A stretch of 64,000 nucleotides of DNA. Origin: Anaerovibrio sp. JC8 (lineage in GTDB: Bacteria; Bacillota; Negativicutes; Selenomonadales; Selenomonadaceae). The translations under genes and the position numbers were made by a program. The stretch lies in assembly GCF_002100115.1 (NCBI RefSeq), contig NZ_ANBM01000004.1, positions 62,001 to 126,000 on the forward strand, written 5' to 3'. The notes under the pieces are model-generated. The model saw only the letters and a program-made list of their open reading frames with translations, was not told the DNA's origin and searched no databases. Each line of letters starts with the position of its first letter. Positions within the stretch are counted from its first letter, which is position 1. Below, in pieces: positions 17,926 through 51,526 of the stretch.

Positions 17926-17950
17926 AAGAATCTCCTATTTAATGTGTCAT

Positions 17951-18134
17951 GGCAAGGGGCTGATTGCTTTTCGCAATTAGGTCACGAGACGTAAAGAAAC
18001 TATTTTTTACTTACTTACACATCAAGAAAACATCCACTGTTTGAGCGAAGCGAGTTTGGATTTTTCTTGATGCTAATTAAAATGTAAAAAATGGTTTTAG
18101 TCGAGAGACCGGGCGAAAGTAACAGTCCCTTGCC
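17951..18134 (+). repeat. Family A hairpin repeat, copy 1 (short core)
   Basis: Nested inverted repeat between hslV and trmFO. The outer stem is GGCAAGGG / TCCCTTGCC. The middle stem pairs AAACTATTTTTTAC with GTAAAAAATGGTTTT, and an inner stem pairs CATCAAGAAAA with TTTTTCTTGATG. The apical sequence GTTTGAGCGAAGCGAGTTT is about 25 bases shorter than in the other copies. A separate inverted repeat (AAAGTAACAG / CTGTTACTTT, 18116-18144) overlaps its right edge and the trmFO stop and may serve as the trmFO terminator. Confidence 0.8.
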
Positions 18135-25853: not shown

Positions 25854-25871
25854 AAAGACACTCCTCTCTCT

Positions 25872-26014
25872 ATGCGCCTACGAGGTTAGCTGTCGGGTTA
25901 GGGTTGAGAAAGACTACCCTTTAAGATCCACTTATGCAGCATCCTTGCTGCAACAGCTGATTTTCATTCACCCCAAAAATTTGGTTCCCCCGCTCCATGG
26001 GCTGGATTAGGCTT
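25872..26014 (-). ncRNA. Cyclic di-AMP riboswitch (ydaO/yuaA type)
   Basis: The minus strand carries the conserved blocks of this class in order: GGAGCGGGGGAACCAA, GGGGTGAATGAAAATC, GCAAGGATGCTGCATAAG, GGGTAGTCTTTCTCAACCC, and the 3' hallmark AACCCGACAGCTAACCTCG then TAGGC. It lies immediately before the NlpC/P60 gene. Riboswitches of this class usually switch such wall hydrolases off when c-di-AMP is high. A TATAAT near 26035 may be the -10 of its promoter. Confidence 0.93.
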
Positions 26015-26059
26015 TATTATAGATATGTATGCCCATTATATTAGATTGTAAAATGCTAT

Positions 26060-26408
26060 GAGTGATCAATAAGCCGAGTTCTGTTACGCAAAAGCGGTGA
26101 CAATCATTTATCTGGACTGCCAGTTGCCTGACAGCTCTAGCGACACACCCGGAAGGTCAGCGGGCCGCCTCATATCCTTCCCTATTCGGTCTTGCTCCAT
26201 GTGGGGTTTATCAAGCCAGCCAGTCACCTGACTGCTGGTGCGCTCTTACCGCACCTTTCCACCCTTACCCGGCGAACCGGGCGGTTTCCTTTTCTATGAC
26301 ACTTTCCCTAAGGTCACCCTCGCTGGACGTTATCCAGCACACTGCCCTGTGGAGCCCGGACTTTCCTCAAACTACAAACATAGTCAGCGATTGTCTTTCA
26401 CGCTCATA
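26060..26408 (-). ncRNA. rnpB: RNase P RNA, bacterial class A
   Basis: RNase P RNA matures tRNA 5' ends. The minus strand shows the 5' catalytic core GAGGAAAGTCCGGGCTCC, the P7/P10 region with GGTGGAAAGGTGCGGTAAGA, a loop equivalent to the CCA-binding GGTAAGGG, and the 3' core ACAGAACTCGGCTTATTGATC. Its length of about 350 nt is normal. A perfect consensus promoter lies just upstream. The exact ends are approximate. Confidence 0.95.
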
Positions 26409-28657: not shown

Positions 28658-28868
28658 AGGGCAGTGGGGTTGAGGTTTTGAGCAATACGGCACGGTACGT
28701 AAAGAAACTTTTTATTGCTAAACCTTAATATTAGTGAAAAAAATCATTTGTCTGAGCGACGCAAATCTTGTCCTGTAAGGGCGAAGCGAGTTATGTTTTT
28801 TTCACTATATAAATGCAAGAAAAAGTTTTAGAACCGGGACCGTCGCGAAAAACACAGCCCCACTGCCT
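28658..28868 (+). repeat. Family A hairpin repeat, copy 2
   Basis: Nested inverted repeat between rpoD and trmK. The outer stem is GGGCAGTGGGG / CCCCACTGCC. The middle stem pairs AAACTTTTTATTGC with GCAAGAAAAAGTTTT. The inner stem is AGTGAAAAAAATCAT / ATGTTTTTTTCACT. The apical core reads CTGAGCGACGCAAATCTTGT then CCTGTAAGGGCGAAGCGAG, with the direct repeat GCGACGC / GCGAAGC. The trmK leader must read through it or start inside it. Confidence 0.85.
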
Positions 28869-34340: not shown

Positions 34341-34551
34341 AAGTGCAGGAACAGATGGCTTGAACAATAGGTTCCGGTGCGTTACAAAACTTTTTGTTGC
34401 GATACTCATATAATAGTGGAAAAAATCATTTGTTTGAGCGACGCAAAGCTAGTCCTGTAAGGGCGACGCGAGTTATGATTTTTTACACTATATAAATGCA
34501 AGAAAAAGTTTTAGCAACGGATACCGTGTGAAAGCCACTGTTCCTGCGCTC
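34341..34551 (+). repeat. Family A hairpin repeat, copy 3
   Basis: Lies between the small-protein terminator and the glyS stop. The outer stem is GCAGGAACAG / CTGTTCCTGC. The inner stem is AGTGGAAAAAATCAT / ATGATTTTTTACACT. The apical core contains TTTGAGCGACGCAAAGCTAG then TCCTGTAAGGGCGACGCGAG, with the 7-base direct repeat GCGACGC twice. On the minus strand the outer stem follows glyS and is trailed by ATCGTTTTTG, so it may double as the glyS terminator. Confidence 0.88.
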
Positions 34552-37784: not shown

Positions 37785-37993
37785 GGGGGCAGTACAGGTA
37801 TCTTTCGCTCAGTTCCAGTACTAAAACTTTTTCTGCCCAAATTAAATAGCGAAAAAAATCATAACTCGCGTCGCCCTTACAGGACTAGCTTTGCGTCGCT
37901 CAAACAGATGATTTTTTTCACTAAGGCATAGTAAGGCACAAAAAGGTTTCTTAACGTACTGTAACCTAATGCTCAATCTACCTGCACTGCCCT
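37785..37993 (-). repeat. Family A hairpin repeat, copy 4 (inverted orientation)
   Basis: Lies between tRNA-Arg and the glyQS promoter. It reads on the minus strand relative to copies 1-3. The outer stem is GGGGGCAGTACAGGTA / TACCTGCACTGCCC. A second stem, CAGTAC / GTACTG, lies inside it. The inner stem is AGTGAAAAAAATCAT / ATGATTTTTTTCGCT. The core TTTGAGCGACGCAAAGCTAG then TCCTGTAAGGGCGACGCGAG appears identical to copy 3. Confidence 0.88.
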
Positions 37994-38047
37994 CAAACTA
38001 TCACAAACAAAAACCTGCCACAAACTGTGACAGGCTATTTCCTAAAA

Positions 38048-38122
38048 TGGTGCGCTCGGCGGGAGTCGAACCCACGCTTTCAGCTCCGGAGGCTAACGTC
38101 CTATCCACTGGACTACGAGCGC
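38048..38122 (-). tRNA. tRNA-Arg (anticodon CCG)
   Basis: The cloverleaf is clear on the minus strand. The acceptor stem is GCGCTCG / CGAGCGC with CCA encoded, the D-arm contains AGTCCAGTGGATAGGACG, and the anticodon arm is TTAGC-CTCCGGA-GCTGA with anticodon CCG. The T-arm is GTGGGTTCGACTCCCGC. This reads CGG arginine codons. Confidence 0.96.
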
Positions 38123-44737: not shown

Positions 44738-44955
44738 GTAAATAATCCCCTTCCTATCGCTCGCAGGTAATAACGGTGATTGTTCAACAGGCAGTTCTCC
44801 TGACTCCAGTTCATCATCATAACTTTGCCTTCCCGGATATCCCAGTGGCATTGATAAAGTATGACTCCCTGATACAGTGGCGGGACCGTACCGGCTTTAA
44901 ACCGGTTTCTCATGTTAGGCCAGCCCAATAATGGACCTTGGCACCTGTTCCCTCA
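44738..44955 (-). ncRNA. Cobalamin riboswitch upstream of cbiK
   Basis: The minus strand shows GGTGCCAAGG at the start, CTAACATGAGAAACCGG, the core GCCACTGTATCAGGGAG, the B12 box GAGTCAGGAGAACTGCCTGT and the closing GGAAGGGG. It controls cbiK and probably exbB-exbD-tonB and the ABC-2 genes behind it. The aptamer copy at 46.9 kb is very similar. Confidence 0.94.
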
Positions 44956-44970
44956 TATTCAGCTAGGTAT

Positions 44971-46884: not shown

Positions 46885-47094
46885 ATCCCCTTCCCATCAC
46901 TCGCAGGTCAAACGGTGATTGTCAAACAGGCAGTTCTCCTGACTTCAGATCATCGCTCCATCACGCCTTCCCAGATTTCTCCAGTGACATAAATGTGATA
47001 TCGCTCCCTGTTACAGTGGCGGGACCGTACCGGCTTTCAACCGGTTTCTCATGTTAGGCCAGCCCAATAATAGGCCTTGGCACCTGTTCCAATC
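46885..47094 (-). ncRNA. Second cobalamin riboswitch, no adjacent gene
   Basis: The aptamer has all hallmarks: GGTGCCAAGG, CTAACATGAGAAACCGG, GCCACTGTAACAGGGAG, the B12 box AAGTCAGGAGAACTGCCTGT and GGAAGGGG. Much of it matches the cbiK copy base for base. Three terminator-like hairpins follow. The nearest gene downstream is the GntP permease, 478 bases away. It may control that gene by readthrough, make a small B12-dependent RNA, or be left over from a deleted gene. Confidence 0.92.
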
Positions 47095-47120
47095 TTTATT
47101 AAATTCATCTTACGAATATG

Positions 47121-51315: not shown

Positions 51316-51526
51316 TGGGGCAAGGAACCGGTGTCTTTCACGCCGTCCCTGTGCTAAAACTTTTTATTGCCTATATATAGTGTAAAAAATCATAACTCGC
51401 TTCGCCATACGGGACTAGCTTTGCGTCGCTCAAACAAATGATTTTTTCCACTAAAACCAAGGTATAGCAATAAAAAGTTTCTTCACGCGCTGGTACTAAA
51501 TGTTCAAGCCACCGGTACCAGCCCCC
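51316..51526 (-). repeat. Family A hairpin repeat, copy 5 (inverted orientation)
   Basis: Same orientation as copy 4. The outer stem GGGGCAAGGAACCGGTG / CACCGGTACCAGCCCC is the longest of the set. The inner stem is AGTGGAAAAAATCAT / ATGATTTTTTACACT. The core TTTGAGCGACGCAAAGCTAG then TCCCGTATGGCGAAGCGAG differs from copy 3 at a few positions. It lies upstream of the M18 gene and next to a family B copy. Confidence 0.88.

Follow-up and report, generated by a model that had tools for sequence, protein, structure and literature searches.

Palindromic repeats are common in bacterial genomes and mostly unexplained. ERIC, YPAL and bcr1 are imperfect palindromes of 100-200 bases for which no mover is known; by description, the repeat analysed here is like them in its long-hairpin form, and to our knowledge its apex, which recurs across phyla, is not known from any of the three. 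With MITEs it shares being short, non-coding, intergenic and dispersed and having inverted ends, and relatives in one genome (G451) carry 8-9 bp target duplications. Unlike MITEs, the copies in the Anaerovibrio sp. JC8 genome (G000, the own genome below) have no detectable target duplication or parent transposon, and they keep an inner loop fixed although their end letters differ from copy to copy. REP, BIME and REPIN elements with their RAYT partner (PMC2817692, PMC3116915) are likewise extragenic palindromes with clusters of alternating orientation and free stem letters, but measure 20-40 bases versus ~200 bases here; they carry GTAG or CGTC tags, which are absent from the hairpin foot in the own copies (ends GGGCAG..CTGCCC), and the own genome is without the Y1 transposase. 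BoxC and potential intrastrand triplex motifs, reported to be unstable loci (PMC4666352), resemble some relatives (those in P2-like prophages and of the G028 type), which have a second A/T-rich, triplex-capable hairpin, whereas in the own genome this second hairpin does not occur as a repeat.

On balance, the copies are best explained as mobile palindromes of a non-autonomous, MITE-like kind, whose core is recognised by its structure and which template switching flips, homogenises and deletes, a reading held with some confidence. The earlier note had offered a mobile hairpin (MITE- or REPIN-like) or a structured RNA family; its MITE-like part is upheld by dispersed copies, patchy spread, lack of coding capacity and an apex-bearing G451 copy that has inverted ends around it and an 8-bp target duplication, while the searches for the Y1 transposase and in Rfam gave no support to the REPIN part and to a curated RNA family, respectively (see below).

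Copies, anatomy and context of the hairpin

A covariance model (R1) was built from a 19-copy alignment (A2). In the window (the whole 64-kb stretch of DNA analysed), R1 matched five copies at 129-190 bits, with the places and strands that had been reported for them (Table 1), and the search returned no sixth. Four copies carry the long form of the apex and copy 1 the short form, and the intergenic location was borne out, apart from a possible 27-base overlap of copy 2 with a doubtful TTG start. The expectation of a high genome-wide copy number, drawn from five copies per 64 kb, was right as to a dispersed family but not as an extrapolation: a genome total of ~35 predicts ~1 copy in the window, which is thus locally enriched. 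The window also holds two cobalamin riboswitches on the minus strand with ~2 kb between them (44773-44963 and 46912-47102), and a c-di-AMP riboswitch immediately beside the RNase P RNA gene on the same strand (25859-26406).

Table 1. Window copies of the repeat and parts of copy 3, the copy under study.
Feature	Position (strand)	Description	Evidence
Copy 1	17950-18134 (+)	short-apex form TTTGAGCGAAGCGAGTT, 185 bases	model R1, 129 bits
Copy 2	28659-28867 (+)	long-apex form	model R1, 172 bits
Copy 3	34342-34549 (+)	long-apex form	model R1, 190 bits; fold z -6.9
Copy 4	37786-37994 (-)	long-apex form; adjoins tRNA gene 38051-38122	175 bits
Copy 5	51319-51525 (-)	long-apex form	174 bits
Copy 3 outer stem, 5' arm	34342-34365 (+)	letters vary, pairing kept	helix 1: two-sided changes in 20/22 pairs
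Copy 3 internal-loop motif, 5' side	34380-34390 (+)	CGTTACAAAAC; consensus CGTTAAGAAAC	conserved columns, 78 non-redundant copies
Copy 3 inner stem, 5' arm	34418-34430 (+)	GGAAAAAATCATT	helix 4, 95% of cells paired
Copy 3 apex, long form	34431-34473 (+)	TGTTTGAGCG, extra small hairpin, GCGACGCGAGTT	alignments
Copy 3 internal-loop motif, 3' side	34508-34514 (+)	GTTTTAG	conserved columns
Copy 3 outer stem, 3' arm	34524-34549 (+)	partner of 34342-34365	fold and covariation

The element is an imperfect palindrome of 180-210 bases without coding capacity. From the tip outward it consists of the apex (conserved in the family as TGTYTGAGCGNAGCGAGTT), the inner stem (AAAATCAT/ATGATTTT), loops, stem 3 (CTTTTT/AAAAAG) and an asymmetric internal loop, conserved like the apex, in which CGTTAAGAAA faces TTTTAG; outside this loop lie the variable stem 2 and a variable outer stem with the ends GGGCAG/CTGCCC. 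The short apex reads TGTTTGAGCG, then A, T, C or G, then AGCGAGTT, and the long form is the same with a small hairpin inserted. The variable letter is the middle of GCGNAGC, and GNA triloops form very stable DNA minihairpins, GCGAAGC being a sequence used in published work; the apex is not favoured in this form by folding programs, and a minihairpin there is only a lead. The outer internal loop was at first read as a tandem G.A or kink-turn motif, a view that was given up, as other copies pair there.

Copy 3 folds at -82.3 kcal/mol, versus -50.5 +/- 4.6 for its shuffles (z -6.9). Among 78 non-redundant copies, the frequency of the major letter was 0.61-0.63 in the outer two stems and 0.85-0.87 in the inner two. 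In alignment A2, 87% of cells were paired (44-51% in slid structures), two-sided changes occurred in 43/60 pairs, and 0/500 shuffles reached any of five pairing measures; the outer stem, which forms the inverted ends, had 82% of its cells paired. Elements of the type found in G028, G033, G037 and G052 (n=16) keep the same motifs with free stem letters, 97.8% of their cells pairing and 16/26 pairs having two-sided changes. Because template switching yields two-sided changes without selection on RNA, the covariation does not by itself demonstrate that these repeats act as RNA. The repeats call for caution in covariation-based RNA discovery, and the family is a natural data set with which to separate selection from template switching behind compensatory changes.

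Genomic copies with two called neighbours (n=29) lie between tandem (20), convergent (6) or divergent (3) genes, mostly adjoin stop codons, and show no preference of orientation relative to tandem neighbours (11:9). Neighbour genes were mostly housekeeping, with no transposase among the families shown, and were rejected as a source of the mover. Close doublets in Anaerovibrio were all head to head, minus then plus (5/5 in one set, plus others; examples are L219, L224, L234, L245 and L058), as were most but not all doublets in other genera. Random flipping should have scrambled this order.

Distribution across genomes and viral contigs

The genome-wide covariance search that the earlier note had proposed was run with model R1. 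It gave 35 full copies in the own genome and, with both strands counted, 47-59 in each of the congeners G002, G006, G008 and G015, 10 in G013 and 2-5 in three further genomes; none were found in G001, G003, G004, G005, G007, G012 and G014. The exact apex was present in 50/250 Negativicutes genomes, usually in multiple copies (reversed control, 0), its occurrence being patchy even inside genera, and in 13/299 genomes of a phylum-wide sample that partly overlaps the former, nine of them outside the class. It was also found in other Bacillota, and in P2-like prophages.

Viral contigs (2.9 million) were searched for the apex motif, for which we estimate a few matches by chance, so that single viral matches mean little. 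In P2-like prophage contigs, whose closest annotated phages are those of Mannheimia, Pasteurella, Salmonella and others, the hairpin lies between terminase and head-completion genes and has, besides the apex, variable stems and the internal-loop motif. In L246 (4230-4480) and similar viral contigs, the hairpin between the terminase small-subunit and head-completion genes is followed by a possible intrastrand-triplex hairpin. Two other viral apex families were set aside, one (L249/L259) being inside a gene and the other (L261 type) lying in a filamentous-phage context beside a Zot gene with no clear hairpin. Phage and plasmid collections held no DNA match to the repeat, and a literature search for the apex sequence returned chance matches only. 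Rfam gave no match, either at the gathering cut-off or at E up to 5, so the repeat was not found to be a known RNA family.

The family, which is defined by its structure, occurs in several families and in more than one phylum. It is conceivable, if doubtful, that it constitutes a cross-phylum class of mobile hairpins with a GCGNAGC apex, a fixed asymmetric loop and free stems, in which an undescribed recombinase or nuclease would recognise the folded strand and also flip inserted copies in place.

Inversion, remnants and persistence at orthologous sites

Coding DNA of G015 and G008 is ~84% identical to that of G000, and most G000 copies compared have a site in common with one or both, which indicates long persistence. 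One site, just behind a terminator, carries a copy in G015 and G008 and none in G000. At six sites with reciprocal best matches (L029, L033, L043, L051, L052 and L055) the orthologous copy was inverted, and nine other reciprocal comparisons had the same orientation. Where the arms differ, the inverted pairs gave 16 matches in the frame of the element and 0 in the frame of the flanks, outward to the seventh pair, so that the turn took in essentially the entire hairpin. The flip was assigned to the G015 side at L029 and to the G008 side at L043. That inversions were met again in independent genomes (G008 and G002; G006 and G002) makes assembly error an unlikely source.

Orthologous copies also differed by several two-sided changes (for example G-C to A-T in L030/L235), and long and short apex forms interchange at orthologous sites. 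The site of copy 2 holds an inverted copy with other stems in G008 and G002, a remnant in G013 and nothing in G009 and G011; some non-reciprocal cases (this site in G008/G002, and L048/L241) may be replacements. Remnants reduced to the outer stem were found at window site 3 in G015 and window site 2 in G013. In some copies (L046, L040, L042) change has been slower than in the coding flanks: L046/L223 are 100% identical versus 83-91% for the flanks, and L040/L211 99% versus 84-95%. Such slow change, a point against the favoured reading, is easier to square with selection or local gene transfer than with inert MITEs.

Conserved loops with covarying stems in several families, near-identity of orthologous copies at some sites and a usual place beside stop codons are what would be expected of a structured RNA family in many copies, a 3'-UTR element or sRNA with a protein or ligand binding at its internal loop and apex. 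Such a family would hardly ignore the direction of tandem neighbours, reverse its orientation at orthologous sites, occur so patchily or go without an Rfam match, and we consider this explanation unlikely.

These outcomes in natural genomes, namely in-place inversion, arms changing together and loss of the centre, are those expected of palindrome replication, and one report describes template switching between imperfect inverted repeats as homogenising the arms and inverting the spacer (PMC8604942). On the favoured reading of mobile palindromes, the polymerase would switch template between the arms during replication, which would keep the arms complementary while their letters drift, invert the whole hairpin in place and sometimes delete its centre. 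A point against it is that the conserved mismatched loop would not survive template switching by itself; something therefore selects that loop. A trans-acting protein probably recognises the core (asymmetric loop and apex) in the folded strand, which would be why the mismatched loop and the apex survive; copies inserted between genes, often beside a stop codon or behind a terminator, then persist for long. Dispersal, persistence, in-place inversion, centre deletion and pairing kept under sequence change are, at the level of DNA comparison, established for this family.

Mobility in G451 and candidate movers

G451 contains 111 matches to CAATTCGTAGTTTRGC (control, 3), in elements with shared inverted ends that are 63 bp, 150-290 bp with other contents, or 220-231 bp with the apex. 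Flush direct repeats of 8-9 bp border 7/17 elements, versus 0.4 for shuffled flanks, and the apex-bearing copy L358 (CTACATAT) lies inside terminal inverted repeats with a flush 8-bp target duplication. The G451 relative is clearly a mobile element; its 63-bp form appears to have arisen by deletion between two CGGCATCC direct repeats. The G451 element shares the apex and neighbouring stem with that of G019, a relative of the host family, and mainly the apex, with little else, with the window copies, so its target duplications can be extended to Anaerovibrio only by inference. The mover would be a trans-acting enzyme, which in G451 makes the 8-9 bp duplications. Against the favoured reading of mobile palindromes, 0/30 copies in the own genome had a target duplication, and no larger version or autonomous partner was recognised there in a non-exhaustive search by BLAST and model.

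Candidate movers were sought by protein family. The Y1 (PF01797, RAYT-type) transposase had no match in G000, G013 and G015, and reverse transcriptase (PF00078), as for a retron or group II intron origin, none in G000, G015 and G006. The conserved apex is a defined handle for seeking the mover.

Both movement and flips would be explained if the hairpin were the substrate of a structure-recognising recombinase (attC-like, or of the IS200/IS605/REP kind) that cuts at its base and reinserts it. Free stem letters with fixed loop letters, flips of the whole hairpin and the head-to-head Anaerovibrio doublets agree with this, but the doublets hold one orientation, which free flipping would randomise; the Y1 transposase had no match in G000, G013 and G015, no enzyme was found, and no attC-like boxes (RYYYAAC / GTTRRRY) were seen by eye. 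We rate it as rather improbable. Least of all do we credit host-maintained chromosomal sites that serve nucleoid, gyrase or repair functions, a role suggested for REP/BIME, and that ordinary recombination would have spread: long persistence at common sites and the slow change of some copies suit them, but they would not be expected to be absent from close congeners or to have the target duplications of G451.

No transposase lies in the BrnTA genes between G451 ends, nor in a 4-kb pair (L363), and both were rejected as movers. The former is a BrnT/BrnA toxin-antitoxin pair lying between the inverted ends as if it were cargo (L353:458-1150, contig C265). At L359-L362 a REP-like repeat, GTAGGGGCGGCATTCTGCCGCCC palindromes, likewise lies within these inverted ends, which suggests nested repeat families.
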